Assembly (NCBI RefSeq): GCF_003003255.1
Contig: NZ_PVTD01000007.1
Coordinates: 62,001 to 126,000 of the forward strand
DNA from: Aliiruegeria haliotis
GTDB lineage: Bacteria; Pseudomonadota; Alphaproteobacteria; Rhodobacterales; Rhodobacteraceae
Direction of reading: 5' to 3'
Length of the DNA: 64,000 nt
The notes beneath the pieces were generated by a model. That model ran no database searches and was not told where the DNA came from. It saw only the letters and a program-made list of their open reading frames with translations. The translations under genes were made by a program, and so were the position numbers. Of the stretch, positions 4,837 through 24,674 are shown piece by piece. How positions within the stretch are numbered: position 1 is the stretch's first letter; each line of letters starts with the position of its first letter.

Positions 4837-4861
4837 AACGCCGCTGCCAGCATTTCGTTCC
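4837..4861 (-). promoter_or_regulatory. EcfG-type promoter for the CsbD gene
   Basis: On the minus strand GGAAC (4861-4857), a 16-base spacer and CGTT (4840-4837) match the GGAAC-N16/17-CGTT consensus of the alphaproteobacterial general stress sigma factor EcfG. The expected start point near 4830 leaves a leader of about 50 bases before the CsbD ATG. Seen by eye; no transcript data. Confidence 0.8.
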
Positions 4862-4881
4862 CGAATTTCTGAGGCCGCGAG

Positions 4882-5379
4882 TTATTCCGCGCTCTGGTTG
4901 ACGCCACCACCGGTCGCGATCGCTGTCATCCGGCGGTCGCCGTCGTAGCCGGCATCGAGCATCTCGGAGAGCGTTGCCGCATCACCATCCAGATCAAGCT
5001 GGTTGGCAAAGGCCCGCAGAGTGCCATAGGCGGCGATCGCGTAGTGTGCGAGGCGCTGATATTGCGAAATGATGACAGCGTCGCGCACGTCACCTGAGGT
5101 CATCTCGGCATCAACGGCGTGAGCGCGTGCCTCCGCTACCAGACCTTCCATCCCTTTGCAGTGATGTGCATCGGGATCGATGTCGTGGCTGGCACAGAGC
5201 GAAGTCAGAGCGTCCATTCCACTCGAAATGCCATTTGACGCGTCGACCAGGGCTTCGGACAGCGCCGTGTCCCCCGCTGCGCGGCCCATTTCAACGGTAA
5301 CGTCGAGCGCCTGCTTGCAGGCAGAATACGCATCTTGCAGGCCTTCGTGGTAAACATCGTGGAGTGTCTTGTCGGACAT
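4882..5379 (-). CDS. DUF892 / YciE-type ferritin-like protein
   Basis: 165 aa. The MSDKTLHDVYHEGLQDAYSAC opening, four long helices, and the YQRLAHYAIAAYGTL segment match the DUF892 (YciF/YciE-like) ferritin-like family, which is stress-induced and may bind metal in a four-helix bundle. The start was placed at MSDKT because GAGGAAG precedes it; 45 upstream codons in the frame look non-coding. It is transcribed divergently from a 51-aa gene, with a GGAAC-N16-TGTT promoter in the shared intergenic space, so general stress control is likely. Function beyond the family is not established. Confidence 0.85.
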   Translation of the reverse strand: MSDKTLHDVYHEGLQDAYSACKQALDVTVEMGRAAGDTALSEALVDASNGISSGMDALTSLCASHDIDPDAHHCKGMEGLVAEARAHAVDAEMTSGDVRDAVIISQYQRLAHYAIAAYGTLRAFANQLDLDGDAATLSEMLDAGYDGDRRMTAIATGGGVNQSAE

Positions 5380-5429
5380 GGTGACTTCCTCTTCGTACTG
5401 TTGCGTCATTTCCGAACTCGTGATCATCC

Positions 5430-5454
5430 AACAGCCAGACGAACCTTTTGTTCC
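5430..5454 (-). promoter_or_regulatory. Near-consensus EcfG promoter for the DUF892 gene
   Basis: Minus-strand GGAAC (5454-5450), 16 bases, TGTT (5433-5430). The -10 element differs from the CGTT consensus at its first base only. It points at the DUF892 gene, whose ATG is about 50 bases further on. Confidence 0.65.
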
Positions 5455-5479
5455 CCAAGCGACGGTTGCGAACCGACAC

Positions 5480-5504
5480 GGAACCAAAGCCGCCCTCGTG
5501 CGTT
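5480..5504 (+). promoter_or_regulatory. EcfG-type promoter for the 51-aa gene
   Basis: Plus-strand GGAAC (5480-5484), a 16-base spacer and CGTT (5501-5504) match the consensus exactly. The predicted start near 5511 gives a leader of about 70 bases before the ATG at 5583. It is divergent from the DUF892 promoter at 5430-5454. Confidence 0.8.
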
Positions 5505-5582
5505 GCCAAGTCACTCAGTGCCCACGACGCTGTGCTTGCCATCGCGCACCGTGGAGCGGACCAATCAATACAGGAGAAACCC

Positions 5583-5738
5583 ATGTCCAAGACGCAAACG
5601 CGCCACCATGTCATCGAAGGCCTTAGAGGATCCGAGCAGCACCACCCGCTTAAAAACGAGCCGGGGGAAAAGGGTGATCCGGACCACAACAAGCCCGAGT
5701 CCGAGGGTGGAGACGACAAGAAAAGCACGACGGATTGA
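5583..5738 (+). CDS. 51-aa hydrophilic stress-type protein, unrecognised
   Basis: A very small protein made almost wholly of charged and polar residues (MSKTQTRHHVIEGLRGSEQH, then repeated acidic/basic pairs and GGDDKKSTTD at the end). It has no hydrophobic core, membrane segment or cysteine, and looks intrinsically disordered. CAGGAGAAACCC just before the ATG gives a good ribosome binding site, and an exact EcfG promoter lies about 80 bases upstream, which is the main reason to believe it is a real gene. No function can be assigned; such proteins are common members of general stress regulons. Confidence 0.7.
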   Translation: MSKTQTRHHVIEGLRGSEQHHPLKNEPGEKGDPDHNKPESEGGDDKKSTTD

Positions 5739-5767
5739 CGTCCACCAAGGGCGCATTGGCACCCGGG

Positions 5768-8421: not shown

Positions 8422-8456
8422 GAGAACAAATATAGAACACTTGGGAGCACTGACAA
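8422..8456 (-). promoter_or_regulatory. SOS box overlapping a leaderless promoter of the radical SAM/udgX operon
   Basis: On the minus strand TTGTCA (8456-8451), 16 bases, TATATT (8434-8429), then 7 bases to the A of the ATG at 8421. The -10 element lies inside GTTC-N7-GTTC (8438-8424), the LexA box of alphaproteobacteria. LexA bound here would block the promoter directly. Both elements are exact by eye. LexA binding and the leaderless start are inferences. Confidence 0.75.
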
Positions 8457-8466
8457 CCCCCCGCAC

Positions 8467-9083: not shown

Positions 9084-11111
9084 ATGTCACCATCTTCATC
9101 GAATTCGCCACTCAGGGGAGTATGGATGACCCCATCCGGGACGGCGATCTATCGGCACATTCCCAAATGCGCGTCCTCCACGCTTGGCCAGGTATTGTAT
9201 TATCTGGAACAAGGAGAGTTCGCTCCCAGAGATATTCACGAGCAGAAAGAAGGTCTGATCAAGGGAGACACCCCCGAAGGCAGTGCTCAAATCCAGGATG
9301 CCCTGAAGCGCCAGAGCGTCTTCGTTTTCACATGCGTGCGCAACCCGTACCCGAGAATCCTGAGCAGCTTTTTCGACAAGATCTGCTCCATTCAGCGTTG
9401 GGGTCGCCGGTACCGGCAACAACAACTTTCGCCGATGCTTGAGGCCTATCGCATCGATGTCGGCAGCCCTGAGAACGGCTTCGACTTCGACCAGATCGCG
9501 AGTTTCCGAAAGTATCTTCGCTTTGTGCGCGACAACGTGCTGTATCATGATCCGATGCCACCCGATTTCCATTGGGACAGGATGGCGGGTCTGGCCTCAA
9601 ATGTTTCGCGGGCAGGAGGGCGCTATGACACCGTCATCAAAGTCGAGGCTCTGGGAGAAGGCGTCGAGAAAGTCCTGACGCGCGTCAAGGCACGCCATCC
9701 TCTCCAGAAGGACGAAGTGCCACGCTTCAACGAAAGTGGGGATCGCGGCCCCAAACGGGCACATCCAGTATCCGACTACTACGGTCCGGAAGAGATCGAC
9801 ATAATGAAGGCGGTCTTCGAAAAGGACTTCGCGATTTTCGGATATGAAGCTGAGAGCCCTGGTGGCGGTCTTGGTTCATCCGAGCTTGATATCGATGAGG
9901 TCAATCGAGCCTTGGCGGCGACACGAGCCGACAACCGCAAGCCGACACGCACCATTCCTGCCGGGTCTCTTACATCAAGCTCAGGTTCAACTGATGCAGA
10001 GCGGGTGGAACGCGCAGTAAGGTTCCGTTTCGGCGCATCCCATGATGCAAAAAAGCTTGTCATGCCCGCTGAAGTCGCAACCACTGAAGCGACACTGAAG
10101 GAGAACGTTTTTGCGTTCGATTTGGCGGACATGAAGGTTCTTCCCCTCAATCATGGCCAAAGACGCATCAATGTTCGCAGAGACAGGTTCGTTCGCGGAC
10201 GGGACGGAAAGGGAGCTGCGTGGCGGGCCGCCCAAACTGCCAACGCCGCACGTGCTGCAGGTGTGACCGTGCCGCTTCTAGCCAACCTGTCCGATGGAGC
10301 AGTGTTTGATCCCAAGAGACTCGGTCCGTCTTGGCGTGACACCCCGGTGGTCCAGCATTCCCGGCGTGTGGGATCGGATGGGCTTTCCGTACTGGTGCCA
10401 CTCCCCGGCTATATGGAGCCACGTGGAGAACACCTTCCCATACCGGGCTTCGATCCCGTTTCCTTTTTAGAAAAGTTCCCGAAGGCGATCTGGCGAGGAA
10501 ATCCTTCGGGTCTGATCACCACAGAGAATGGCGGGCGCCGGTTTCTGCCTTGGGTGCTCAACGTGGCAAACAATTCAATACTTTCTGGCGGCAAGGCGGA
10601 TTTGACAACGGTCTCCAAGTTCAGACGATTCCGCTTCCTTTCGGGTTGCGCGGACAAGCCGAGGGTCGACGCCAAGTTCATTGCCCCCGAAAGCAGGGAT
10701 GGTTTCTTCGAGTCGATCGCACCCGAATTTCAATCATTCTTCGGCACACCGATGCCGCGCGAGGCGCAACTCCAATACCGCTATATCATTGCACTGGAAG
10801 GCAATGATTTCCCGACAAGCCTGTATTGGTCTCTCGGCTCCAACTCGGTAGTGTTCTGCACGCCTCGCAAATGGGAGTGCATTCTGGATGAGGCCCTGAC
10901 GGCCTGGGAGCACTACGTTCCCATTGCAGAGGATGGCTCCGACGTCGAGGCGCGCATCGACTGGTGCGAAAGCAATCCGAGAGAGTGTCTGGCGATCATT
11001 GGTCGAGCCAACGCAGCGATGCGCGAAATGACCGATATTGCGCTGAGGGATGCTATCGACGCGGCCGTGTGGGAGGTCTACCAGTCGAGACTTTCCGGTG
11101 TCAGCGCCTAG
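9084..11111 (+). CDS. Two-domain protein: sulfotransferase fused to a GT90 (CAP10-like) glycosyltransferase
   Basis: 675 aa. Residues about 15-255 form a sulfotransferase: the 5'-phosphosulfate loop is HIPKCASST (25-33) and the 3'-phosphate motif is CVRNPYPRILSSF (84-96). A low-complexity linker of about 85 residues follows (258-345). Residues about 350-660 match glycosyltransferase family 90: KAIWRGNPSG (467-476), YRYIIALEGNDFPTSLYW with LGSNSVVF (565-591), LDEALTAWEHYVP (601-613) and DVEARIDWC. GT90 enzymes (CAP10, LpsA-type) transfer xylose, glucose or similar sugars. The combination suggests one polypeptide that glycosylates and sulfates a surface glycan. No neighbour belongs to a polysaccharide pathway, and an IS3 relic begins 67 bases downstream, hinting at transfer. 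Confidence 0.85.
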   Translation: MSPSSSNSPLRGVWMTPSGTAIYRHIPKCASSTLGQVLYYLEQGEFAPRDIHEQKEGLIKGDTPEGSAQIQDALKRQSVFVFTCVRNPYPRILSSFFDKICSIQRWGRRYRQQQLSPMLEAYRIDVGSPENGFDFDQIASFRKYLRFVRDNVLYHDPMPPDFHWDRMAGLASNVSRAGGRYDTVIKVEALGEGVEKVLTRVKARHPLQKDEVPRFNESGDRGPKRAHPVSDYYGPEEIDIMKAVFEKDFAIFGYEAESPGGGLGSSELDIDEVNRALAATRADNRKPTRTIPAGSLTSSSGSTDAERVERAVRFRFGASHDAKKLVMPAEVATTEATLKENVFAFDLADMKVLPLNHGQRRINVRRDRFVRGRDGKGAAWRAAQTANAARAAGVTVPLLANLSDGAVFDPKRLGPSWRDTPVVQHSRRVGSDGLSVLVPLPGYMEPRGEHLPIPGFDPVSFLEKFPKAIWRGNPSGLITTENGGRRFLPWVLNVANNSILSGGKADLTTVSKFRRFRFLSGCADKPRVDAKFIAPESRDGFFESIAPEFQSFFGTPMPREAQLQYRYIIALEGNDFPTSLYWSLGSNSVVFCTPRKWECILDEALTAWEHYVPIAEDGSDVEARIDWCESNPRECLAIIGRANAAMREMTDIALRDAIDAAVWEVYQSRLSGVSA

Positions 11112-11178: not shown

Positions 11179-12140
11179 ATGGCTCGGAAACGGTATTCGG
11201 GCGAGGATGTTCTGAAGCTTCCGCTTAAGATTGGGCTAAAACTGACGGGCGGTGACGACGTTTGGTCGGTGTCAGCCAAGCGACTTGCGACAATGAGCCA
11301 TACCCGCAGCACAGGTCCGAGCGAGTTGCCGATGGTTTGCGCCACCGGCTCAAACAGCAATTGGCGACAGCGAATGTATCAACGGTTTTGTTGGATGGGC
11401 AATTCCCAGTTGCCCGAGTTGCGCAACCTTGAAAACGAGGACGCAAGGCTGGCGAAGATCGTGACCAAATGAAAAAGGGACAAAGCTGATCAAGAAGAAA
11501 AGCCAGAACTACCATAATCCGAGGGTTCCGCTGACCGGCGGGTGATTGCAAGGCAATCACCTAAAGGGAAACGGCGGGCCAGCTTCGTGAGATCGCGATT
11601 CAAACGCGCCAGTGGTTCGCAATGTAGGAACGCCAAACCTGAAGGCTGATCGGATTGGCACCCAACTCGACGCTGTACCCGGCGGTCACGAGGATCCATT
11701 TTGAACTGTGGCTTGCCATGATCCAAGGGGCAAAGTGCTGCGGTCACTACGGATATTGCAAGGTGGCCGACCTGCTGCGAGCTGAGCGCTGGTGCGGGAA
11801 CCACGTCCAAGCGAAGCGGCTCTGTGGCGAGGAACGGCTCCGGCAACCACAGCGGCATATGAGAAAACGACGCCGCTATCACAATGGCAGCTTGATCATC
11901 CGGTGCCCCTCGCCCCCCCCCAACCACGTCTAGAGCGTCGACTTCGTTTTTATTGCAAACTCAGTAGTGGGTGCGTCTACAAGATGTTGACGACAAACGA
12001 CGAATACTCTCGCCAAACACTGAAAGTGAACGCGCGCACCAAGATGCGACGAGTGGAGATGTTGTACAGCTGCTCCCGACGCGCGGGAACCTTGGCGGCG
12101 ACGTCCCGAAGGACATCGCCCTCCGCCTTCACGGCAAGAC
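11179..12140 (+). mobile_element. IS3-family insertion sequence relic (orfA and orfB, frameshifted)
   Basis: The frame at 11179-11472 starts MARKRYSGEDVLKLPLKI and ends with QLPELRNLENEDARLAKI, the leucine-zipper side of an IS3 OrfA. In another frame 11740-11933 reads YGYCKVADLLRAERW and HNGSLIIR, the OrfB helix-turn region before the DDE core, and 11965-12100 reads VYKMLTTNDEYSRQTLKV, the strand around the second catalytic region. No frame spans the whole, so the transposase is dead. No terminal inverted repeats were found. A second relic of the same type is at 25036. Confidence 0.75.
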
Positions 12141-14828: not shown

Positions 14829-15194
14829 TCAATCGAGACCACCGCTTTTCTCGATGGCTTCTATCAGCGAGGACGTGGTGAACGGGATCGGAAGGCGCAC
14901 GACAGCCTGCTGTTTCGACACGGCCTTTGGGTCCGGTTCCTCCGTGACCCCTTCGATGACAACCCACTGCGCGCCCGTGTCTCCCAGTTCTTCGGTCAAG
15001 GCTCTATAGCAGGACCGGGTTCCCAGATGGCCAGCAACGACCAACCGGGGCGGCGGTGGCGAACGCATGGACGCCACAGCGTCTGAATAGGTCGCCGCAA
15101 CGACGGGGGCGCAGTTTTTCCACCGGTCCGAGACGATTTCGGCGATGTCCTCCGCGATGAGTGGGGTGGACTCAACTATGAGGATCTGGTGCAT
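14829..15194 (-). CDS. Degenerate response-regulator receiver domain (stand-alone)
   Basis: 121 aa, one receiver fold. It opens MHQILIVESTPLIAEDIAEIV, as in CheY-like proteins, but the acidic pair is replaced by E-S, the phospho-accepting Asp position reads RLVVAGHL with no Asp, and the conserved Lys region reads VVRLPIPF. All three phosphorylation landmarks are therefore missing, so it is probably a pseudo-receiver acting by protein contact. The start was set at ATG 15194; a GTG nine bases upstream is possible. It is divergent from the Crp/Fnr gene and lies in the same area as the PhyR system. Confidence 0.65.
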   Translation of the reverse strand: MHQILIVESTPLIAEDIAEIVSDRWKNCAPVVAATYSDAVASMRSPPPPRLVVAGHLGTRSCYRALTEELGDTGAQWVVIEGVTEEPDPKAVSKQQAVVRLPIPFTTSSLIEAIEKSGGLD

Positions 15195-15274
15195 TGCTCT
15201 CACACGATCAGTTGGACGATCACCTTTAGACCGCTAGCGGGACCCCGGTCTTTAACATTTGATGTAGAGGGATC

Positions 15275-16021
15275 ATGAAAGCAGAAACTGATTGCGCCGC
15301 CTGCCCTCTTCGGAAGTTCGCGCTCTTCGAGGCGCTTGACGAAAACGATGAAGAGGCGACCCGTCGCTTCAAGGACGGAGAGCGCCGGGTCGACCCCGGC
15401 ACCATCCTGATGCATGAAGGCATGGTCAGCGAGGACTTCTACACCGTGCTTTCGGGCATGGGCTTGCGGTACAAAACGACACCCGATGGCAAGAGGCAGG
15501 TGATCAACTTCGTTCTTCCGGGAGATTTCATCGGTTTGCAGTCCGGCCTGATGTCCGAGATGAAGCACTCGGTGGAAACGACGACGCGGATGCACCTCTG
15601 CCGCTTCAAGCGCTCCTCCCTTCTGCCCTTCATGCGAAACAACCCCGGCCGCGCATTCGACGTGACCTGGTTGTCTGCTGTCGAGGAAAACCTCGTGGCC
15701 GAAGCGCTGGTGTCTATCGGGCAGCAACCGGCTGCCACGCGATTGGCCTGGGCCCTGCACAGGCTCTACACCCGCATTTCCGCTGTGGGCGCGGACCTCG
15801 GGCCTGGACGGATCCCCCTGCCTTACACTCAGCAGGACATGGCCGACGCGCTTGGCCTGTCTCTGGTGCATACCAACCGTATCCTGCGGCTTTTGCAAAC
15901 CGACGGGATGATCAGTTGGCGCGACAAGGTCCTGACTGTGCATGATGAGCGCGCACTCGCGAACCGGGCGGGCATGACGGCCGACATGCAGGAGACGATC
16001 CCGCGACGCCCACTGATCTGA
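15275..16021 (+). CDS. Crp/Fnr family transcription regulator
   Basis: 248 aa. An effector domain of the cyclic-nucleotide-binding fold (residues about 30-130: GTILMHEGMVSEDFYTVLSG, FVLPGDFIGLQSGLM) is followed by a dimer helix and a Crp-type helix-turn-helix (YTQQDMADALGLSLVHTNRILRLLQ, about 187-212). Only two N-terminal cysteines are seen (C7, C10), so an FNR-type four-cysteine oxygen-sensing Fe-S cluster is unlikely. The recognition helix reads VHTNR rather than the FNR E-x-x-S-R, so the DNA target probably differs from an FNR box. The ligand is unknown. Confidence 0.9.
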   Translation: MKAETDCAACPLRKFALFEALDENDEEATRRFKDGERRVDPGTILMHEGMVSEDFYTVLSGMGLRYKTTPDGKRQVINFVLPGDFIGLQSGLMSEMKHSVETTTRMHLCRFKRSSLLPFMRNNPGRAFDVTWLSAVEENLVAEALVSIGQQPAATRLAWALHRLYTRISAVGADLGPGRIPLPYTQQDMADALGLSLVHTNRILRLLQTDGMISWRDKVLTVHDERALANRAGMTADMQETIPRRPLI

Positions 16022-16060: not shown

Positions 16061-17824
16061 TCAGTCCGCCTGATCGCTCTCCGGGTCAACGACTGGCAGC
16101 GCCACGAAGGTCATCGAGACGCAATAGATACCGTCATCGACCGACACAACAACCCGGCCGCCAAGTTGCAACGCGAACGTCTGGATAAGACGCTGACCCA
16201 GTGAGGTTGAAGGGCTCTGGACCTGCAACTGTCGCGCCTGTGCTGCCGAAACGCTGTTTTCGATACGAACCTCGACACCACCTTCGGCATCGGTTTCGCG
16301 TAATTGATAGCGAACCCAAGGGGCCGCGCCCCCGTCGGAATCGGCATAGGACACGGCATTCGCCAAGCCTTCGATCGTGAAAAAGGCCAACGGCAGAGCC
16401 TGATCCGGCGTCAACGGCACCGAGGCCACGTCCCGTTCGATCGGAATGTCGATCCTGTCCGCCCGTTTCGGCACGACATCCGCCAACATGCGGAACACCC
16501 GCTCCAGCAGATCATCGGCACGGAGCTTTCCAATGGCATCAGTTCGGTAGAGCACCTTGTGCACAACGGCCATGCCCGCGACCCGCCGCTGGATGCCATC
16601 CAGAACGGCCATCGATTCCGCTTCCTCGATGCCCCGGGACTGCATGTTGATCAGCGACGAGATCATCTGAAGGTTGTTGGATACGCGGTGATGAACCTCT
16701 TTCAGCAGCACCTTTTGCTCAACCATTGCATTCAGCAGATCAGCCTCGTCACGGATCAGCTTCTCGGCCATTTCCGCAAACGTCGTCTCGATATAGGCCA
16801 GTTCCTGCGCGACCTTCTGCTCCGGCGGAGCAGGCAGCTCACGTACCGCTGCGAAACGGCGCATCTTGTTGGCAAGACCACGCACGCTCGCCACGACCTG
16901 CCGCTCGACGGTCAGGGTGATGAGGATGAGGCTGGCCAGCCACATGGCGAGGGCAAAGGCTGCGGGCGTGGATAGAAAGAAGCGCGGATCGAACCCTTTG
17001 GGCTCGGTCGACCAGGCCCCAACGGCAAAGAACGACCCTGCAACAACCGGAACCACCGAGTAATGCGTCATGGTCCCCGCGCCGCTCTCGGCGTCGAAGT
17101 TCTGCGCCTGCTCTCCGTCAACGGTGAGTACCTGTTGATCCTTCGGAAGCACGGAAGCGGCGTCCTCCAGCTCGAAGGACGCGGTCACCAACTCGCCGTT
17201 CGCATTGGCGGTGAAGAACCACGCACTCGCATCGCTGACCGGCGAATTGGCCATCTCCAGCACGGTTTCCCTCGGAAGTGAGACGGTCATGAAGCCCAGA
17301 AGCTCATCATTCGCGCGCCGGATCGGAGCGGTAACGATGACAACGGCCTGTTTCGACATGGGACCGTTCGCGCTCACGTCGACCCGGATGCGCGGATCTG
17401 CAAGCGCACGTTGAAAGCTCTCCGTTTGAGAGAACTCGCCGGTCTGCCCGGTTGAGGAGCAGGTCATGTTGCCTTCGGTGTCCACGGCTCCGGCGAACAC
17501 ATAGGCACCATCCGATCGCGAAACGAACGCCCTGAGGTGTTCCGAGCAGGCCGGCGACGATAGTCCGAATGAAGCGGCAGAAAGCGCGAGGGCCTGCGAG
17601 GCGCCAATTGCCGTGTCGACCAGCGCACGCTCAGCCTGCGCGATTTGCACCGTCTCCGCTTGCAAGGCTTCTTCGGTCCTCAGGCGCAGATCTTCCTCGA
17701 TCTGCATCGACTGGAGCATTGCGATCAGGCCCAAGGGGAGCAACGCCAGCGTCAGAAGGAAGCCCAGCCTCCTCGACAAGCCCCACCGGTTCTCCACCTG
17801 CCCGGTTGTCTCGGTGTCCGTCAT
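16061..17824 (-). CDS. Membrane sensor histidine kinase (HisKA_2 type), likely feeding PhyR
   Basis: 587 aa. Membrane helix at about 21-38, an extracytoplasmic sensor region of about 250 residues, second membrane helix at 285-303, coiled coil, then HisKA_2 with the phospho-histidine in KEVHHRVSNNLQMISSLINMQ pattern (H378/H379) and an HATPase domain (N-box EGLANAVSYA near 485-494, SLGQRLIQTFALQLGG at 541-556). This histidine kinase subclass is the one that phosphorylates PhyR in other alphaproteobacteria. The ATG overlaps the nepR stop by ATGA, so kinase and anti-sigma factor are made together. The signal it senses is not evident. Confidence 0.88.
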   Translation of the reverse strand: MTDTETTGQVENRWGLSRRLGFLLTLALLPLGLIAMLQSMQIEEDLRLRTEEALQAETVQIAQAERALVDTAIGASQALALSAASFGLSSPACSEHLRAFVSRSDGAYVFAGAVDTEGNMTCSSTGQTGEFSQTESFQRALADPRIRVDVSANGPMSKQAVVIVTAPIRRANDELLGFMTVSLPRETVLEMANSPVSDASAWFFTANANGELVTASFELEDAASVLPKDQQVLTVDGEQAQNFDAESGAGTMTHYSVVPVVAGSFFAVGAWSTEPKGFDPRFFLSTPAAFALAMWLASLILITLTVERQVVASVRGLANKMRRFAAVRELPAPPEQKVAQELAYIETTFAEMAEKLIRDEADLLNAMVEQKVLLKEVHHRVSNNLQMISSLINMQSRGIEEAESMAVLDGIQRRVAGMAVVHKVLYRTDAIGKLRADDLLERVFRMLADVVPKRADRIDIPIERDVASVPLTPDQALPLAFFTIEGLANAVSYADSDGGAAPWVRYQLRETDAEGGVEVRIENSVSAAQARQLQVQSPSTSLGQRLIQTFALQLGGRVVVSVDDGIYCVSMTFVALPVVDPESDQAD

Positions 17825-18030
17825 TGTGCACCAGCACCCGGATCGCCTTCCGGATCATCGCCGCTGGCGTTCCCGGCATGGCCGGTGGGCGGAAGCGCGA
17901 CATTCCCAAGCTTGCCCAGCAATCCGAGGAACTCATCGGACATGTCTTCACACGTGTCGTCCTCGAATGCTGACCGCAAGCTCGCTTCCAATTGCGCTCT
18001 GGCCAGATTGCTGATCCTGCCCTGTCTCAC
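17821..18030 (-). CDS. nepR: NepR-type anti-sigma factor
   Basis: 69 aa. The helical core (ISNLARAQLEASLRSAF, then EDMSDEFLGLLGKL) matches the two-helix pattern of NepR, in which a basic first helix is followed by the P/S-D-x-F-x-x-L-L-x-x-L second helix. NepR holds the sigma factor EcfG inactive until phosphorylated PhyR binds it. The start is GTG (MRQGRISN) with GAGG six bases upstream; no ATG is available in this frame. The tail after residue 45 is rich in Gly, Asp and Pro and probably disordered. It overlaps the kinase gene by ATGA and is divergent from phyR. The usual partner gene ecfG is not beside it. Confidence 0.8.
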   Translation of the reverse strand: MRQGRISNLARAQLEASLRSAFEDDTCEDMSDEFLGLLGKLGNVALPPTGHAGNASGDDPEGDPGAGAQ

Positions 18031-18161: not shown

Positions 18162-18186
18162 GGAACCAACGCACAAGTTGCGCGTT
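18162..18186 (+). promoter_or_regulatory. EcfG-type promoter for phyR
   Basis: Plus-strand GGAAC (18162-18166), 16-base spacer, CGTT (18183-18186): exact consensus. The expected start near 18193 gives a leader of about 30 bases to the phyR ATG at 18223. It overlaps the opposing nepR promoter almost completely. Confidence 0.85.
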
Positions 18187-18192
18187 AGTTCC
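18168..18192 (-). promoter_or_regulatory. EcfG-type promoter for nepR-kinase, overlapping the phyR promoter
   Basis: Minus-strand GGAAC (18192-18188), 16-base spacer, CGTT (18171-18168): exact consensus. The two promoters share 19 base pairs face to face, so the polymerases cannot both bind at once. The leader to the nepR GTG is about 130 bases. Confidence 0.8.
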
Positions 18193-18222: not shown

Positions 18223-19071
18223 ATGACGCCGCAGGATACCTCCGCTGCCGAAGCGCCACGCACCATGCGCGGGCTCATCGCCCCCCACCTGCCCTTCCTT
18301 CGTCGCTATGCCCGTGCCCTGACCGGGCAGCAGGTCAGCGGGGACAGACTGGCGGCCATGACACTCGAGGCGATCCTGGCGGAGCCCGAAGCGCTTCCTG
18401 TCGGATCTTTGTCCCAAAGGGCCGCACTGTACTACGTCTTTCACCGCATCTGGGTCAGCCTTGGCCGCCCGATGGCAGACGACACGCAGGAGAGCGACCC
18501 GCTGCGGGCACGCGCGCAGGACAAGATCGCGAAGCTCACTGAGAACACGCGGGAGGCGCTGCTGCTCCACACGGTCGAAGACTTCTCGGTCCAGGATGTC
18601 GCGGCCATCATGGAACTGACCTTAGATGAAGCCCGCCATTTGATCGAAACCGCACAAAACGAAATGCTCGGTGCCGTTGCGGGTCGGGTGATGATCATTG
18701 AGGACGAGGTATTGATTGCAATGGACCTTCAGTCCATCGTCGAAAGCCTCGGCCACACTGTCACCGGCATTGCCCGGACGAAGGATGAAGCCGTGGCGCT
18801 CGGCAAGGCCAGCGAGCCCGACCTTATCCTCGCCGACATTCGGCTGGCAGATGACTCCAGCGGTATCGACGCAGTCAACGAGCTTTTGGAAGCGTCCCCC
18901 CAGGTGCCAGTGATCTTCATCACCGCGTACCCCGAACGCCTGTTGACCGGAGAGCGCCCGGAACCCGCTTTCCTGATTGCCAAGCCGTTCAACCAACAGC
19001 AGGTCATCTCCGCCGTGGGACAGGCGATGTTCTTCGCCTCGACGGCGCCACTGCATCGGCAATCGGCTTGA
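18223..19071 (+). CDS. phyR: PhyR, general stress response regulator
   Basis: 282 aa. Residues about 15-150 are a sigma-factor-like domain (LPFLRRYARALTGQQVSGDR for the sigma2 part; LTENTREALLLHTVEDFSVQ and DVAAIMELTLDEARHLI for the sigma4 part). The receiver follows: acidic patch EDE (160-162), phospho-Asp D205 in LILADIRL, T234 in the FITAYPERLLTG block typical of PhyR receivers, and K254 in IAKPF. When phosphorylated, PhyR binds NepR and frees EcfG. The start at MTPQD was chosen for its weak GGGAAA site; MRGLI 14 codons on is an alternative. It is driven by an EcfG promoter, so it is probably self-activating. Confidence 0.95.
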   Translation: MTPQDTSAAEAPRTMRGLIAPHLPFLRRYARALTGQQVSGDRLAAMTLEAILAEPEALPVGSLSQRAALYYVFHRIWVSLGRPMADDTQESDPLRARAQDKIAKLTENTREALLLHTVEDFSVQDVAAIMELTLDEARHLIETAQNEMLGAVAGRVMIIEDEVLIAMDLQSIVESLGHTVTGIARTKDEAVALGKASEPDLILADIRLADDSSGIDAVNELLEASPQVPVIFITAYPERLLTGERPEPAFLIAKPFNQQQVISAVGQAMFFASTAPLHRQSA

Positions 19072-19191: not shown

Positions 19192-19716
19192 CTATTGCGA
19201 CTGGAGCGGCACAACAGCAGACAAGGCCATTTTGCCCGATCCGTCCGTGACTTGCGCGCCATGACTGAGATAGACCAGCGCGTTTCGAGCCGGATCGGCA
19301 ATTCGCGTCACCTTGAGCGACTTGAGAATGAGCGACTGGCGTTCGGAGAAAATCTTTTCCTTCCGGGGAAGGTTGGCGATGTCCTCTGACGCGATGGGAC
19401 CGGTCGCAACGCAATCGATGGCGCTGTAGCTCGGGTCTTCGAACCAGTTTCCCTTCTGGAGACGATCAATCATCCCCCGGTCGAAGTACGAGACGTAGCA
19501 GGCGACTTGAGGCAGATCAGGATCCTGAACGACTTCCACGATGACGTCGTTGCCCACCCAATCCACACCCACCTCGGCCACCACATCGGCATGCGCAGAC
19601 AGGGGTGTGGCAAGGGCAACAAGCAGGCTGGCGCCCTTCGCCCACTTGCCTGCACGATTGACCGCTGACGTGCGGTGCGCTTTCAGGTCAGTCGGACGGG
19701 GTTTCCTGGCGGTCAT
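19192..19716 (-). CDS. creA: CreA family periplasmic protein
   Basis: 174 aa. After a signal-like stretch (KGASLLVALATPLSAHADV) the mature part matches E. coli CreA closely in layout: VGVDWVGNDVIVEVVQDPDL, VACYVSYFDRG, AIDCVATGPI, IFSERQSLILKSLKV, RIADPARNALVYLSH and ALSAVVPL. CreA is a secreted protein of unknown role. The start at MTARK gives a longer than usual N-terminal part before the signal sequence; a later start is possible. An exact EcfG promoter lies about 50-80 bases upstream, placing it in the stress regulon. It converges on phyR. Confidence 0.88.
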   Translation of the reverse strand: MTARKPRPTDLKAHRTSAVNRAGKWAKGASLLVALATPLSAHADVVAEVGVDWVGNDVIVEVVQDPDLPQVACYVSYFDRGMIDRLQKGNWFEDPSYSAIDCVATGPIASEDIANLPRKEKIFSERQSLILKSLKVTRIADPARNALVYLSHGAQVTDGSGKMALSAVVPLQSQ

Positions 19717-19769: not shown

Positions 19770-19794
19770 AACGCGCAACGACCCATTTCGTTCC
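19770..19794 (-). promoter_or_regulatory. EcfG-type promoter for creA
   Basis: Minus-strand GGAAC (19794-19790), 16-base spacer, CGTT (19773-19770): exact consensus. Predicted start near 19763, about 47 bases before the creA ATG. Confidence 0.8.
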
Positions 19795-20043: not shown

Positions 20044-20664
20044 TCAAACGGCGCTGAGCAAGGTCAGTGGCAGGGCCAGCGCCGTGCCGAGGGCGGCAAA
20101 CCCGAACAGAGCGAACACGCCGTCGCGCATGAGCAGAGAGGTCGAAAACAGCACGACCGCAAGGCCGAGGATCGACGACGAAAAGGGCACGAGTTCCAGC
20201 AACGGCATGGCGCATCCGCAAATGAGGCACAAAAGCTGGATGGTCGAGCGTCCGGCCGGCTTCATCAACAACTGGAGGCGCTCCTTGGAGTGATCGTCCA
20301 ACCAATCCGCAATCGACCGGAGGCGTATCATGACCCTTTCCGCCTTGTCGCCGTCAAGTTCGCGGCGCATCAGCCATCCGGGAAGCCAAAGCGACTCGCT
20401 CTGCATCAGCATTTGTACGGCGACGAATGCGATGGCGAGGCCACAGACAGTGGCAAACCCCGGAATGCCGCTCAGCGGCGATACGACCAGCAGCGCCGGC
20501 ACCAGCATCACCGGCACGAAGCAGTCTGACCCGAACGCATCCGTCACTTCGGCAAGCGAGACCGTGTTCTGCTCCGCCAGTTCGGCCACGTTGTCGACGA
20601 TGCATCGCACGGGCCGGTCCACCTCCTCCAGATCGGGCGCGGAAACGGAGTTGTTGTCGGTCAT
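20044..20664 (-). CDS. ExoD family exopolysaccharide synthesis-related membrane protein
   Basis: 206 aa. A polar start (EVDRPVRCIVDNVAELAEQN) is followed by hydrophobic segments (CFVPVMLVPALLVVSPLSGIP, TVCGLAIAFVAVQMLM, IQLLCLICGCAMPLLELVPF, SSILGLAVVLFSTSLL and FALFGFAALGTALALPLTLL). The order and the LVSPLSGIPG-like turn match ExoD, first described in Sinorhizobium exopolysaccharide and alkaline tolerance. The molecular role is unknown. It lies 75 bases after yihY on the same strand, so the two may form an operon; no separate EcfG promoter was found. Confidence 0.82.
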   Translation of the reverse strand: MTDNNSVSAPDLEEVDRPVRCIVDNVAELAEQNTVSLAEVTDAFGSDCFVPVMLVPALLVVSPLSGIPGFATVCGLAIAFVAVQMLMQSESLWLPGWLMRRELDGDKAERVMIRLRSIADWLDDHSKERLQLLMKPAGRSTIQLLCLICGCAMPLLELVPFSSSILGLAVVLFSTSLLMRDGVFALFGFAALGTALALPLTLLSAV

Positions 20665-20739
20665 GGTGATTTGCCTTTCAGAAGGTGGCCGCCTGGCGCC
20701 CGCATCGCGAATGGTGCGCTGCCTGAGCGAAAACGCGGC

Positions 20740-21690
20740 CTATTGGCTGCCGACCGCTTCGCCGAGGCTATCTGCCTTGACGGCACCGCGCTCGCCCATC
20801 GGCTTCTCCGGCCCGACAGTCGAATCCTTCCGTGTCTGGGCCTCCATCTCTCCGTTCAACTCGGCGCCAAGCAGGATGATGAAGGCCGAGATCCACAACC
20901 ACATCAGAAGCACGATGACACCGGCCAGCGCTCCAAAGCTCTCATTGTAGCTGCCAAAGGTACTGACGTAGAAGGCGAAGCCCGCCGATCCGGCCATCCA
21001 GAGCGCGCAGGCCACGATGGCTCCGGGCGTTACCCATTCGACCCGGGCCGCCGTGCGCGACGGCCCCCAGCGATACAGCAGGGCAAGGCCGATCATGGTC
21101 AGCACGAGCATCGCGACCCACGCGAGAGCAGTGCCACCAGCTTCGGCGACGCCACCCAGATTGATCGTGGCGAGGGTCGATGGCAGGACGATTGCCACCA
21201 GCACGCCGATGATGAGGCCGATGAGCAACAGCACGGTCATCCCCAGCGTCACGGCGGTCAACAAGAAGTATCCCCTCTTCTCCTTCTCGTCGTAGGCGAC
21301 GTTCAGCCCGGTGATCAGGCCCCGCACCCCGCGCGACGCGGAGTAGATAGCCAAGCCGAGACTGAAGAGAGCGGCCAGCCCAAGGCGACCGTTCTCGGCC
21401 CCGGACACCTCCTGGGCCTGGCGTGTGATGATGTCGAGCGCGTCCTGCGGCACAAGCCCTGCGAGTTGGGACAGCGTATCCACGATCTCGTCTGGCTCGA
21501 CCAACAGGCCCCCGATCGCAAGCACCGCGCTGATCGCAGGAAACACCGAGAGCAGACCATAGAATGCAGCGCCGGCGGCAATCAGGGAAATGTGGTCGGC
21601 AGTGACCTCATTCTTGACCCTCAACAGGATATCCTTCCACCCGGAGCGGGGGATCTGCGTCGGGGAAGTCGCCGTGCGTCCACGTGCCAT
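20740..21690 (-). CDS. YihY/BrkB family inner-membrane protein
   Basis: 316 aa with about six membrane helices. Family landmarks are present: ISLIAAGAAFYGLLSVFPAI near the N-terminus, YSASRGVRGLITGLNVAYDE in the middle, then a PGAIVACALWMAGSAGFAFY segment and SFGALAGVIVLLMWLWISAF near the end. The start at MARGRT was taken because GAGGTCCCTC precedes it; 36 codons of open frame upstream look non-coding. YihY/BrkB proteins are transporters or envelope proteins of unknown substrate. Probably co-transcribed with the ExoD gene. Confidence 0.9.
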   Translation of the reverse strand: MARGRTATSPTQIPRSGWKDILLRVKNEVTADHISLIAAGAAFYGLLSVFPAISAVLAIGGLLVEPDEIVDTLSQLAGLVPQDALDIITRQAQEVSGAENGRLGLAALFSLGLAIYSASRGVRGLITGLNVAYDEKEKRGYFLLTAVTLGMTVLLLIGLIIGVLVAIVLPSTLATINLGGVAEAGGTALAWVAMLVLTMIGLALLYRWGPSRTAARVEWVTPGAIVACALWMAGSAGFAFYVSTFGSYNESFGALAGVIVLLMWLWISAFIILLGAELNGEMEAQTRKDSTVGPEKPMGERGAVKADSLGEAVGSQ

Positions 21691-21820
21691 GAGGGACCTC
21701 ACTCTGATTGCAAAACAAAGCTGAACGGTGGCCCGGAAGCGGGGCTCCCGGCCGAACAGCAAACGGGAAAGTGTTGGATGGATGATGCGGCGGCACAATG
21801 CACCGCGAAAGGAGCGCCGA

Positions 21821-21889
21821 TTAGAAGAGGAAACTGATGATTGCCAATGCCACGACGACGACGCCGATGATGTAGAAAAGCCGGTGCAT
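21821..21889 (-). CDS. 22-aa membrane peptide under an EcfG promoter
   Basis: The frame reads MHRLFYIIGVVVVALAIISF then LF and stop: a short basic start and one hydrophobic helix filling the rest. GGAGACAAA sits about ten bases before the ATG, and an exact GGAAC-N16-CGTT promoter lies 35-60 bases upstream, so transcription and translation signals both point to this tiny gene. Such peptides usually sit in the inner membrane and modulate larger proteins, but no role can be assigned. It lies between the DUF202 and YihY genes on the same strand. Confidence 0.65.
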   Translation of the reverse strand: MHRLFYIIGVVVVALAIISFLF

Positions 21890-21923
21890 GCTATTTGTCT
21901 CCGTTACTGATGCTTTCCTAGAC

Positions 21924-21948
21924 AACGGCTCGCACCGGATTTGGTTCC
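21924..21948 (-). promoter_or_regulatory. EcfG-type promoter for the 22-aa peptide gene
   Basis: Minus-strand GGAAC (21948-21944), 16-base spacer, CGTT (21927-21924): exact consensus. Predicted start near 21917, leaving about 28 bases to the peptide ATG. It might also feed the yihY-exoD genes further on. Confidence 0.8.
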
Positions 21949-21991
21949 CACGCACGGGCCATGTTTCCGGAATCGGTGACCGTGACCGGGC

Positions 21992-22378
21992 TCAAAGCGT
22001 CCAGAGAATGATCCCCGTGGCCACGGCCCCGATGCTGAGGATTGCGGCAAGCAAAGCCATTCGGCGCGCCGACTGAGCTTCCGCATCATGCTCGGACATA
22101 CGTTTGTGGGCCTTGCGCGACTTTCTGACCGACGCCCAGAAGATCAGGAGGGCGGACAGGACGAAAATCTCGGCAACAGCCTTCGCCAGGAGCGGATAGT
22201 CCGTGTCCTGGAAGACGGCCTTCAAACCGAGCGCCACAGCGATACAAGCCATTCCGGTGCGCATCCAACTGGCAAATGTACGCTCGTTGGCAAGGATCGT
22301 GCGGTCCTCCGCCCATGCTGTGCGTGTATCGGCCAGTTCCTCTGAGGAGGGATTCTCGGAAAGATTGGTATCGGGCAT
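21992..22378 (-). CDS. DUF202 (YidH-like) membrane protein
   Basis: 128 aa. The RTILANERTFASWMRTGMACIAVALGL pattern in the first half is the DUF202 signature (L-A-x-E-R-T-x-L-A-W-x-R-T). Three hydrophobic segments follow that motif (ACIAVALGLKAVF, AEIFVLSALLIFWASV and ALLAAILSIGAVATGIILW). Function unknown; the family is small inner-membrane proteins. It starts about 44 bases after the FUSC gene on the same strand and is probably read together with it. Confidence 0.88.
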   Translation of the reverse strand: MPDTNLSENPSSEELADTRTAWAEDRTILANERTFASWMRTGMACIAVALGLKAVFQDTDYPLLAKAVAEIFVLSALLIFWASVRKSRKAHKRMSEHDAEAQSARRMALLAAILSIGAVATGIILWTL

Positions 22379-22422
22379 CTGCGGATCAGGTCCTTGGTTG
22401 CGCGACCGTCAATAGGTGACGC

Positions 22423-23403
22423 TCAGGTGATTGCCTCGGTCAACTTGCGGGATTCTGTAACCAGTTCCGCCAAACCAAAATCGAGCACAGCGTTGTGAAT
22501 CGCCTCGGGGTCGTCCGCCTCTTCAACCTGCCCCAAGTCGGGAGAGACCGGCAACTCGGCGTGCTCGCCGTCGGCCAGCTTCAAGAGCGCGTCGCAGATG
22601 CCTTCCATTTTCTGGCGCGTGCCTTCGTCGGCCGTCCAGCCTTCTTCCACGGCACGGTCGATGATCACGATGGAATTGTAGACCCGTCTCAGGTGCTGGA
22701 TCTGGTCGTTCGCACCCGCGATGCTTCCCAGCCGCATTTCTTCGGCTGCGGTCGCCGCCCGGTCAAACTCCTGCCGGTAACGGCGGTCTGCCTCTGCTGC
22801 CACGGTGTTGCAATTGCTAGATGACGCTTTGAGCACTTGGGCCAAACGTTCCGAGAGTGCTGCCAGCGCCGCTCGACGATGCCGCACAAATCGCGCCTTG
22901 GCGCGATCCGGCCACACTAGGATCGACACTGCAATCCCCACCCCGACACCGATCAGAATGGCAACTCCACGGTCGATGCTCACGTCGACGACGTTCTCCG
23001 GATGGCCCAAAGACAAGGCAATCGCCGCCACCGTTCCATATTGCCATGACGGCCGCACGACCGAAATGGCGTTCAGCAGGAATACCGTGGTCGCGAGTGC
23101 GGAAACGGTGCCCCAGTGGCGTGGCAACAGCCAGAGGCACAGCAGCCCGATCAGCGACCCGACGAGCGTGGCCGCGATGCGGTGCATGCCGGCCCCGACG
23201 CTTTCGTCGGTATTGGTGGACAGGATGAACACCGCAGACAGGACCGCCAGGAACTCTTCCGGCAACGCCAGGCTGCGCATCAAGATGAGGGACGTGGCGG
23301 CGGCCACCGCTCCCTGGACACCAAGACGGATCGCCTCGCTGCCTTCGTGATGCCAGCGAAATTTCTCGACTGCCTGGTTGAATACGGACCCCACGACGCG
23401 CAA
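22423..23403 (-). CDS. FUSC family (aromatic acid exporter-like) membrane protein
   Basis: 326 aa. The N-terminal half has six closely spaced hydrophobic segments (AIRLGVQGAVAAATSLILM, FLAVLSAVFILST, RIAATLVGSLIGLLCLWLL, ATTVFLLNAISVV, GTVAAIALSLG and AILIGVGVGIAVSILVWP). The ending VWPDRAK followed by a long helical cytoplasmic half (residues 170-326) is the standard layout of the FUSC/ArAE family of exporters. Substrate unknown. It starts 6 bases after the 87-aa gene, so it belongs to that EcfG-promoted unit together with the DUF202 gene. Confidence 0.85.
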   Translation of the reverse strand: MRVVGSVFNQAVEKFRWHHEGSEAIRLGVQGAVAAATSLILMRSLALPEEFLAVLSAVFILSTNTDESVGAGMHRIAATLVGSLIGLLCLWLLPRHWGTVSALATTVFLLNAISVVRPSWQYGTVAAIALSLGHPENVVDVSIDRGVAILIGVGVGIAVSILVWPDRAKARFVRHRRAALAALSERLAQVLKASSSNCNTVAAEADRRYRQEFDRAATAAEEMRLGSIAGANDQIQHLRRVYNSIVIIDRAVEEGWTADEGTRQKMEGICDALLKLADGEHAELPVSPDLGQVEEADDPEAIHNAVLDFGLAELVTESRKLTEAIT

Positions 23404-23409
23404 CGTCTC

Positions 23410-23673
23410 CTACCCTTTGCGGAGTGCGTCTATGAGGTCGTCCTTTGACATGTCTGAACGGCCGTCGATCTCCAACTCCTGCGCCCGCTCGTACAGCTCT
23501 TCCTTGGTCCATGCCTCGTAGGCACTGGCCGATCCGCCCTTTTGACCAGGATTCTGCCGGTCGTTCGCGTGGGCATTCGCAATTCGCGCGGCCTTCTCCT
23601 TGCTGGCTCCATCCTCGCGCAGCGCTTCATAAACGTCGTCATCCTTGACCGAGGGTCCATGATCTGATGTCAC
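23410..23673 (-). CDS. 87-aa Rho-N/SAP-like small protein
   Basis: 87 aa, starting at GTG (MTSDHGPSVKDD), with GGAG seven bases upstream. The first half (DDDVYEALREDGASKEKAAR) is a conserved charged helix; the last 35 residues (AWTKEELYERAQELEIDGRS then DMSKDDLIDALRKG) form the two-helix SAP/Rho N-terminal type fold that binds nucleic acid. Proteins of this build are common small stress proteins in alphaproteobacteria. Its EcfG promoter lies at 23787-23811, but a strong terminator-like hairpin (23700-23739) stands in the leader between promoter and start codon, suggesting attenuation. Confidence 0.85.
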   Translation of the reverse strand: MTSDHGPSVKDDDVYEALREDGASKEKAARIANAHANDRQNPGQKGGSASAYEAWTKEELYERAQELEIDGRSDMSKDDLIDALRKG

Positions 23674-23699
23674 AACCGGTCTCCGCAGTTTGAACGGTG

Positions 23700-23739
23700 A
23701 AAAAAATGGTGGGCCGCCAGGGGTGTGGTCGGCCCACCA
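23700..23739 (-). terminator. Intrinsic terminator in the leader of the 87-aa gene
   Basis: Perfect 10-bp stem (23707-23716 with 23730-23739, arm TGGTGGGCCG), 13-base loop, then seven T residues on the minus strand (23706-23700). It ends the host-attachment operon, whose last stop is at 23837, yet it also lies downstream of the promoter at 23787-23811. Confidence 0.85.
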
Positions 23740-23786
23740 AGTGAGGGACATTGAGCAGGCTCGCGACGAACCGTCTCTGTCTCGTG

Positions 23787-23811
23787 AACGTTTCAACGGC
23801 AAATTGGTTCC
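23787..23811 (-). promoter_or_regulatory. EcfG-type promoter for the 87-aa/FUSC/DUF202 genes
   Basis: Minus-strand GGAAC (23811-23807), 16-base spacer, CGTT (23790-23787): exact consensus. The transcript would start near 23780 and cross the terminator at 23739-23700 before the GTG at 23673. Confidence 0.8.
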
Positions 23812-23836
23812 ACAGCTTGACTGGGAAACTGGCCAA

Positions 23837-24325
23837 TCAGCCGAATTCGACGGTGCTCCTGTCCCGCGCAGTCCCAAGCAGATCGGCAAGGCGCGCTTCG
23901 AGCTTGTCGATGGGCTCGTTGGTCAGGTTCTTGTCGACCTCGGCCACCACTTTGTCGCGCACTTCACTGTGCAACTCGGTGCGCAGATTGCCCAGCAGCG
24001 AGGGCGCAGCGACGATCACAATTTCCTCGAAGTCACCAGCTATGGCGCGTCGATACAGAAGGTCCGCCACATCGGTCGCAAAACGTTCCTTCTCCAGTTC
24101 GTGCCAGTCGGTATCCGCGACGGCCGAGCGCTGTACGGAGGGTCCATCGTTGAAACGTCCCGGCTTGTGCGCCCCCTGCTCCCGGGTCGCTGGATTGTCC
24201 TGCGTCTCCTTGCGGACGACCTCGAAGTGGAAGTCGAATGCGTCCCCCACATTGCGCAGGAACAACGCCTTTTCGCTGTCGGCGACGAGAACCCATGTTC
24301 CGGTCATGATCGTGGTACCCATCAT
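23837..24325 (-). CDS. Host attachment family (baeRF-like) protein
   Basis: 162 aa. The opening TGTWVLVADSEKALFLRNVG, the middle HELEKERFATDVADLL, and the strand EIVIVAAPSLLGNLRTEL are the landmarks of the bacterial host attachment/baeRF family, distant relatives of the release factor eRF1 middle domain. Named from Agrobacterium plant attachment, the molecular job is unknown; several family members are stress-induced and may act at ribosomes. GAGGAGG before the ATG is a strong ribosome site. The ATG overlaps the stop of the 69-aa gene (ATGA). A terminator follows at 23739. Confidence 0.85.
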   Translation of the reverse strand: MMGTTIMTGTWVLVADSEKALFLRNVGDAFDFHFEVVRKETQDNPATREQGAHKPGRFNDGPSVQRSAVADTDWHELEKERFATDVADLLYRRAIAGDFEEIVIVAAPSLLGNLRTELHSEVRDKVVAEVDKNLTNEPIDKLEARLADLLGTARDRSTVEFG

Positions 24326-24531
24326 TGATCCTCCTCTTCGTCGCTGCGGAGCACCCGGGTCTTGCCAGCCGGGCGTTCGTTGGCGCGTTTCAATTCGTCT
24401 CGCGTACCGATGTCGCGCGGCAGACGCCCACCGGAGCGGCCCTGTTGAGAGACGCTGCCTTCTGCACCGAGGAAATCCTTGTCCTCGTCCTTTTCCTTGC
24501 TCGGGTCATAACTCCGGGATTGTTTGCTCAT
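24322..24531 (-). CDS. 69-aa hydrophilic protein, partner of the host-attachment gene
   Basis: Starts MSKQSRSYDPSKEKDEDKDF behind AAAGGAAC. Over half its residues are charged or Gly/Ser, ending RSDEEEDQ, with no hydrophobic core, so it is probably disordered. It overlaps the host-attachment gene by ATGA and is the first gene of that EcfG-promoted unit. Not recognised; it resembles the 51-aa protein at 5583 in character but not in sequence. Confidence 0.75.
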   Translation of the reverse strand: MSKQSRSYDPSKEKDEDKDFLGAEGSVSQQGRSGGRLPRDIGTRDELKRANERPAGKTRVLRSDEEEDQ

Positions 24532-24649
24532 GGTCCTGTTCCTTTCTTTCCCTGTCGCGTTGGACACCGACGGGCGTTTGGTGTTTGAACCGCCTCGCCC
24601 GCTCGGGCGCGCAGTGCACAGGGATCGGCACCGCCTTCTTCACACCGAC

Positions 24650-24674
24650 AACGATTGCGAGAGGGAAATGTTCC
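24650..24674 (-). promoter_or_regulatory. EcfG-type promoter for the 69-aa/host-attachment operon
   Basis: Minus-strand GGAAC (24674-24670), 16-base spacer, CGTT (24653-24650): exact consensus. The leader to the ATG at 24531 is about 110 bases. Confidence 0.8.

Follow-up and report, generated by a model that had tools for sequence, protein, structure and literature searches.

A probable general stress response island in Aliiruegeria haliotis with a second PhyR-NepR-kinase cassette lacking its own sigma factor

The DNA analysed here (the window) is a 64,000-nucleotide stretch of the Aliiruegeria haliotis genome on contig C7 (NZ_PVTD01000007.1, positions 62,001 to 126,000). The interval 4837–24674 of the window contains nine EcfG-type promoter motifs, a second copy of the regulator PhyR (PhyR2) and, on the opposite strand, a NepR-like protein (NepR2) and an HWE-type histidine kinase (PhyK2). 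The interval is probably the core of a general stress response (GSR) island, in which nine EcfG promoters accompany a PhyR2-NepR2-kinase switch without a sigma factor of its own, with EcfG supplied in trans from a locus on contig C5. The predicted promoters and the regulatory genes are as follows.

4837..4861, minus strand, predicted EcfG-type promoter before csbD
5430..5454, minus strand, predicted EcfG-type promoter, TGTT variant, before the DUF892 gene
5480..5504, plus strand, predicted EcfG-type promoter before the 51-amino-acid gene
16061..17824, minus strand, phyK2, HWE/HisKA_2 histidine kinase with a dCache-like sensor, 587 amino acids (Pfam)
17821..18030, minus strand, nepR2, 69 amino acids, GTG start, stop overlapping the phyK2 start (ATGA)
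18162..18192, both strands, predicted interlocked divergent EcfG-type promoter pair, 31 bp, GGAAC-N1-AACG-N11-CGTT-N1-GTTCC
18223..19071, plus strand, phyR2, sigma-like domain and receiver, 282 amino acids (Pfam PhyR_sigma2, PhyR_sigma-like, Response_reg)
19770..19794, minus strand, predicted EcfG-type promoter before creA
21924..21948, minus strand, predicted EcfG-type promoter before yihY/brkB and exoD
23787..23811, minus strand, predicted EcfG-type promoter before the DUF7218/Rho_N gene and the FUSC gene
24650..24674, minus strand, predicted EcfG-type promoter before the 69-amino-acid gene and baeRF12

The GGAAC-N16-CGTT consensus and autoregulated divergent units have been published (PMC3892343, PMC4814048; the literature is cited throughout from the accessible parts of each paper). 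A sequence-only reading of the window had listed eight exact sites and a TGTT variant (5454–5430), all with a 16-base spacer and each 28–140 bases from a start codon. All nine sites are present at the coordinates it gave and all have this spacer. The distances hold for seven sites (36–138 bases between the last base of the −10 box and the preferred start) and fail for two: site 5430 lies 21 bases from the ATG at 5409, or 51 from an in-frame ATG 30 bases further in, and site 21924 lies 234 bases from the ATG at 21690, or 126 from a TTG. With spacers of 15–18 bases the window holds 11 exact matches, eight N16 and three N18, compared with a mean of 2.5 in dinucleotide shuffles of the window, none of which reached 11 in 100 trials. 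All eight N16 matches fall within the interval, where the only other match is an N18 located in the kinase gene. The sites have the form expected of EcfG regulon promoters, GGAAC-N16/17-CGTT upstream of a gene. The window contains no tRNA and no Rfam match at the gathering threshold.

PhyR2 scores 343.6 bits against the PhyR model NF006623 (cut-off 240), placing it in the PhyR family, and shows no deviation at the 100 columns conserved in at least 93% of 113 PhyR rows; PhyR1 of the C5 locus, which is 62% identical, deviates at five of them. NepR2 has no Pfam or NCBIfam match. It is short, lies beside phyR2 on the opposite strand and matches a profile of 90 NepRs at 19.3 bits (−2.0 for the reversed sequence), these having been found, at 90 of 113 loci, by a pattern that requires some of the conserved L positions. 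NepR2 carries L, E, S, and S in place of the near-invariant I, D, N, and P, which are conserved in 87, 77, 83, and 90 of the 90 NepRs, respectively, and retains the L, the R and the aromatic residue of the L-R-x-x-F motif, resembling by spacing alone L32, R33, and Y36 of Sphingomonas melonis NepR. In that protein alanine at L32 or Y36 is reported to have lowered activity, whereas replacement of R33 did not (PMC6599016). Because NepR2 has lost I, D, N, and P and kept L, R, and F, it is, by analogy, more likely to be a brake on PhyR than a clamp on EcfG. PhyK2 scores above the Pfam cut-offs for HisKA_2 and HWE_HK and below that for dCache_1, and has three deviations at 39 near-invariant columns.

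At the canonical locus ecfG lies beside nepR, whereas nepR2 leads straight into phyK2, and no EcfG match above 60 bits is present in the 58 kb around the window phyR2 locus. The sole EcfG found in the genome is at the phyR locus of C5. This sigma factor passes NF009198 (304.6 bits, cut-off 270), a model named just "RNA polymerase sigma factor", and its identity as EcfG rests on its place in a nepR-ecfG operon. The next-best extracytoplasmic function (ECF) sigma factor of the genome shows 37% identity and 83 bits to the EcfG query, below the 165 bits (with 1e-50) at which most EcfG paralogues are reported to have been taken in Methylobacterium (PMC4814048). This ECF gene, at C7:33165, was considered as a second EcfG and set aside, the general ECF superfamily model being the sole one of the 25 listed that it passes. 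In related loci ecfG accompanies phyR in 110 of 111 cases, within 0.7 kb at 31 of 31 other family loci and within 1.5 kb at 79 of 80 named loci; the family is taken as Rhodobacteraceae in the wide sense (titled Rhodobacteraceae, or under Paracoccaceae or Roseobacteraceae), one of the 80 being titled Hyphomicrobiales. At the exception (L152), an apparent single deletion at ~9100–9460 took the end of nepR, the whole of ecfG and the start of the kinase gene and left phyR; it may be real or an assembly fault.

In a PhyR tree of 73 rows, which includes 35 of the 80 named loci and whose bootstrap had not settled, PhyR2 pairs with a sequence from an uncultured Rhodobacteraceae contig (L131) at 100/99 and not with its congeners. 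The L131 locus is complete, with the order phyR//nepR-ecfG-kinase. PhyR1 groups with four of the five congener rows (93/87), and the fifth, a second copy from G301, falls elsewhere; this congener carries phyR at two loci, one of which has two ecfG-like genes nearby. Both groups lie within one ten-row clade (99/95), the exact split of which is weakly supported. Among the nine genomes of the genus, including this one, PhyR is found at 1e-30 in five; four of the eight congeners gave no match at this threshold, and congener matches to PhyR2 reach at most 65% identity. The simplest history is that an L131-like locus was gained and then lost its ecfG; duplication with losses is an alternative that is not favoured over it. 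An AraC-sulfatase gene pair like that of the right flank of the island occurs in five congeners, and the stretches taken there contain no match above 80 bits to an island gene. Insertion of the island, for which an empty congener site was sought, is no more than possible, as synteny of the left flank was not found.

The missing ecfG, the near-invariant residues lost in NepR2, the long branch of PhyR2 (0.69, threefold the 0.23 of L131) and a K to S change that apparently lies in the HHRVxNNLQ box of PhyK2 would also fit a cassette in decay, that is, a GSR locus, probably horizontally gained, that lost its ecfG and is drifting with no function beyond its target genes. We regard such decay as unlikely: PhyR2 is intact at all 100 near-invariant columns, which its native counterpart is not, the 587-amino-acid kinase frame is unbroken, the interlocked promoter is exact and the ATGA overlap of nepR2 and phyK2 is retained.

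The interlocked promoter pair at 18162–18192 is the most novel element of the region. Its plus-strand promoter (18162–18186) faces phyR2 and its minus-strand promoter (18168–18192) faces nepR2-phyK2, with each −35 box one base from the opposing −10 box. The geometry fits a single bidirectional element with overlapping footprints. Start sites 5–10 bases past CGTT would, judged from the motif positions, coincide with the opposing −35 box or lie just past it, presumably leaving no room for two polymerases at the same time. The phyR1 locus on C5 has an identical interlocked layout. The exact palindromic form is present in 16 of 296 family genomes, this one included (control 0), and in a class-wide sample of 387 genomes it occurs in this genome only, five other family members in that sample being without it; the PhyR sigma-like model, which also fires outside the class, exceeds its cut-off in 118 of the 387.

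The layout was followed through 97 unselected phyR loci (17 from one search and 80 kept of 441, which overlap in part and give 96 distinct upstream regions). Two G004 loci and a G027 fragment of the family and three loci outside it were left out; 14 loci picked only by the palindrome were excluded from the unselected counts and included in the 111. The loci are related, and Fisher values for locus counts overstate their independence. Both promoters are exact in 41 of the 96 regions, and an interlocked pair is present in 41 of these 41, with an offset of 6 to 8 bases; five additional exact pairs in these loci lie apart. An exact promoter on one side only is found in 15 and 12 regions. With one mismatch allowed, 62 of 71 pairs in the unselected family loci are interlocked. 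In contrast, among 29 phyR loci of other families (the best-scoring ones, not a random draw) five have both exact promoters, none interlocked and all back to back, and with one mismatch allowed 1 of 19 is interlocked. Symmetrical EcfG-type pairs of a second type, offset by 2 bases and with GGAACG...CGTTCC serving both strands, were seen at L131 (5088–5114) and at phyR loci of G092 and G017. No description of the interlocked arrangement or of clustering centred on phyR was found in the literature searched, from which subscription papers were largely absent, making this weak evidence of novelty.

The 31-bp element is a dyad, with genes for a Crp-like regulator and a pseudo-receiver nearby, and could in principle be the operator of a dimeric transcription factor, its likeness to EcfG promoters being a by-product of symmetry. 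However, exact EcfG boxes stand in both arms with 16- or 17-base spacers, the same boxes occur singly before other island genes, the middle appears by eye unconserved in 55 elements, and the five loci outside the family carry the same two promoters without overlap, making the operator interpretation quite improbable.

The density of sites was compared with the background of the whole genome (5.04 Mb, 33 contigs, 99.97% complete), as the sequence-only reading had proposed. Overall there is no excess, with 83 exact N16 sites and 83 for the reversed-pattern control, whereas the local density is above background: the densest 20 kb holds eight sites compared with a mean maximum of 3.3, and eight was never reached in 20,000 random placements. 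The genome-wide count was dropped as a regulon test, since at 83 versus 83 the real sites drown in the background, and position relative to genes was used instead, with "upstream" meaning that a same-strand gene starts no more than 350 bases away. By this measure 46 sites lie within called genes, 26 upstream of one and 11 were not placed (nine without a downstream gene in the stretch taken, two more than 350 bases away). The custom gene caller mis-called 1628–3268 and did not call nepR1 or nepR2; for the two sites on the nepR side the score therefore comes from the next gene beyond nepR. Two islands hold 16 exact sites, all 16 upstream of genes, compared with 10 of the remaining 67; thus 16 of the 26 promoter-like sites are concentrated in ~40 kb, less than 1% of the genome.

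The window island comprises ten exact sites in 30 kb, including two sites 5.4 and 3.0 kb upstream of the window, of which C7:56614 precedes a PLD-type membrane peptide (named by eye) and C7:59005 a PRC-barrel gene. Its last site is 24674, and a transposase remnant (HTH_Tnp_1) lies just past it at 25036–25254 on the plus strand; a frame resembling a transposase remnant, without a Pfam match, lies at 11179–11472 (plus strand). The C5 island comprises six exact sites in 8.5 kb with phyR1, nepR1, ecfG, an HWE kinase, a ferritin-like (Dps-like) gene, DUF1328, a second csbD, a pyridoxamine-oxidase-like gene and an AI-2E transporter. Outside both islands, a divergent pair of exact sites at C2:149154–149336 (L008) lies before genes for a PLD-type membrane peptide and for a product whose start resembles a signal peptide (both named by eye) and is likely a further real GSR site.

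The density had been thought unusual on the premise that EcfG regulons are normally scattered. This premise did not hold in the related genomes, where motif sites gather near phyR in the 97 unselected loci. Within 0.4 kb of the phyR start there are 118 sites compared with 3 for the reversed control, at 0.4–5 kb 142 compared with 14 (about tenfold), at 5–7.5 kb 34 compared with 14, and at 7.5–20 kb 21 compared with 20, which is background, the named loci being covered to ~10 kb. The window island extends 24 kb from phyR, beyond the stretches covered for the other loci. It is very improbable that the island is a by-product of dense intergenic promoters among small genes with no selected clustering around phyR, as the equal genome-wide count and control might suggest, because site density declines with distance from phyR.

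The genes around phyR are a shuffled common pool. At the 111 loci, homologues near phyR were found for DUF1328 at 55 (39 with a motif upstream, TGTT allowed), AI-2E at 26 (17), the PLD-type peptide at 19 (16), CsbD at 18 (13) and Dps-like proteins at 16 (13), with 0 for the reversed control in each case. ExoD homologues occur at four loci, all four with the motif upstream, and Crp/Fnr homologues at 29, two with the motif. Homologues of the 69-amino-acid protein occur at two loci, where the spacing suggests a position beside baeRF12 homologues, none with a motif upstream. The other genes of the interval are listed below.

4585..4779, minus strand, CsbD-like stress protein, 64 amino acids (Pfam CsbD, run from a longer start at 4830)
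4882..5409, minus strand, DUF892 protein, 175 amino acids (Pfam DUF892, E 1.4e-40)
5583..5738, plus strand, 51-amino-acid hydrophilic protein of a small conserved family, motif GSEQH..LKN....GDP.H
14829..15203, minus strand, pseudo-receiver with a receiver fold whose phosphoacceptor position lacks Asp, arranged head to head with the Crp-like gene
15275..16021, plus strand, Crp/Fnr-family regulator
19192..19716, minus strand, CreA-family protein (Pfam CreA)
20044..20664, minus strand, ExoD-family protein (Pfam ExoD), 75 bases downstream of yihY
20740..21690, minus strand, YihY/BrkB-family membrane protein (Pfam PF03631, run from a longer start at 21798)
22423..23403, minus strand, FUSC-family membrane protein
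23410..23751, minus strand, DUF7218 and Rho_N protein, 113 amino acids
23837..24325, minus strand, baeRF family 12/Host_attach-family protein (Pfam)
24322..24531, minus strand, 69-amino-acid hydrophilic protein, overlapping the baeRF12 start by 4 bases

The suggestion that small members of the regulon can be found by promoter alone was borne out for one gene, the 51-amino-acid gene at 5583, through its family and its csbD neighbourhood. Its product has no Pfam match and has four matches outside its own genome in 295 genomes searched. Three are small proteins of 69–77 amino acids that share the motif (G058, G261, and G069); those in G058 and G261 adjoin csbD and that in G069 has GGAAC-N16-TGTT upstream, whereas the fourth match lies within an unrelated 725-amino-acid open frame. 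The 69-amino-acid protein has no Pfam or NCBIfam match. The exoD gene would be co-transcribed with yihY, and the island genes we take to be a GSR-like set. In Sphingopyxis granuli, csbD and an mscS gene are reported among the directly GSR-regulated genes (PMC7083833).

The pseudo-receiver is connected to the PhyR2 switch by position only. Its AlphaFold model has a predicted local distance difference test (pLDDT) score of 87, and the PDB matches listed for this model are mostly receivers. A profile search made without PhyR frames, from which 7 of 28 matches were removed because they were ordinary receivers or PhyR, placed a homologue at 21 of 113 phyR loci, with a Crp-like match beginning within ~310 bases at 18 of the 21. 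By eye the Asp is missing in 11 of 13 aligned members; L150 and L176 have one.

In the proposed mechanism, the nine sites would be EcfG promoters driving mostly small envelope, DNA-protection and uncharacterised genes together with the island's own regulators. PhyR2 would serve as anti-anti-sigma factor and NepR2 as an anti-sigma-like protein in a second partner switch with the HWE kinase, and since this switch is without its own sigma factor, EcfG would have to come in trans, from the native phyR1-nepR1-ecfG-phyK1 locus on C5. A signal would activate PhyK2, phosphorylated PhyR2 would take up NepR, and the freed EcfG would fire both islands, including both regulator pairs through the two interlocked bidirectional promoters. 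At the 31-bp element one polymerase would exclude the other, each firing yielding either PhyR or the NepR-side operon, and NepR2 would more likely temper PhyR than hold EcfG. A broader proposal is offered tentatively, as possible and somewhat short of probable: the Rhodobacteraceae may have fused the two GSR autoregulatory promoters into one interlocked two-way ECF promoter, at which each EcfG firing would make PhyR or the NepR-EcfG-kinase operon, limiting runaway and noise. In the second, sigma-less copy with the same element, PhyR2 would open the shared EcfG to a new signal and NepR2 would be the PhyR brake.

Several results weigh against these interpretations. The short, divergent NepR2 could be a product of decay, PhyK2 scores 156.8 bits against the PhyK model NF051872 (residues 24–573), under the cut-off of 750, and one of its deviations is the K to S change, which was placed by eye and apparently lies in the HHRVxNNLQ box. 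Outside the family 11 of the 29 phyR loci are without an ecfG match in the ~3 kb taken. No exact promoter is present on either side of the phyR-nepR gap in 28 of the 96 regions, and the nepR-ecfG promoter of Rhodobacter sphaeroides is reported to lie opposite the phyR coding region (PMC5830050). The genome-wide motif count does not exceed that of its control, which leaves local density, position and conservation as the basis of the promoter claim. YihY occurs near phyR at 36 of the 111 loci with the motif upstream in just 3 (reversed control 0), and DUF892, DUF202, FUSC, UdgX, the 51-amino-acid gene, baeRF12 and the 69-amino-acid gene have no homologue with an upstream motif at these loci.

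The locus resembles the canonical alphaproteobacterial PhyR-NepR-EcfG locus in its PhyR with sigma-like and receiver domains, its NepR-like protein, its HWE kinase and its divergent units, each behind a GGAAC-N16-CGTT promoter. In contrast to the canonical locus it is without ecfG and its promoters are interlocked, whereas in the five other-family loci where both promoters are exact they stand back to back. Additional copies of PhyR and NepR (RsiA2/RsiB2) are reported in Sinorhizobium meliloti, and in Methylobacterium extorquens AM1 none of the six ecfG genes is reported at the phyR locus (PMC4814048). Unlike in these organisms, the window cassette includes a kinase, lies within a promoter-rich island and has an EcfG-type promoter on its nepR side, whereas rsiA2 is reported not to be RpoE2-regulated (PMC4814048). 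The NepR-like paralogue NepR2 of S. melonis Fr1, in which L31 and F35 matter, is reported to bind PhyR and to damp the response as a negative feedback regulator; nepR2 adjoins ecfG there, whereas the window nepR2 lies between phyR2 and the kinase gene (PMC6599016). Rubellimicrobium thermophilum likewise has two GSR loci per genome (GSR and GSR'), with promoters predicted from GGAAC-N16-17-C/GGTT; its GSR region is reported to have its own PhyR, EcfG and another HWE kinase (PMC12148442), whereas the second locus here keeps NepR and is without EcfG. The bidirectional sigma-70 promoters of Escherichia coli are also short pseudo-symmetrical elements giving two divergent transcripts with mutually exclusive polymerases. 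In contrast to the ECF-type −35 and −10 boxes here, which interlock over 31–33 bp, they are reported to share a −10 element, with starts mostly 18, also 10 or 23, bp apart (PMC12825309). At these promoters polymerases are reported to compete when one direction is activated strongly, and transcription constrained in this way to vary less from cell to cell (PMC12825309).

Predicted GSR target genes in this group tend to gather within ~7 kb of their regulator, and new GSR genes can be sought by position together with promoter. A regulator pair on one interlocked ECF-type promoter would be a natural system for mutual exclusion in a stress switch, and the sigma-less second cassette would be a natural test of one sigma factor wired to two sensors.

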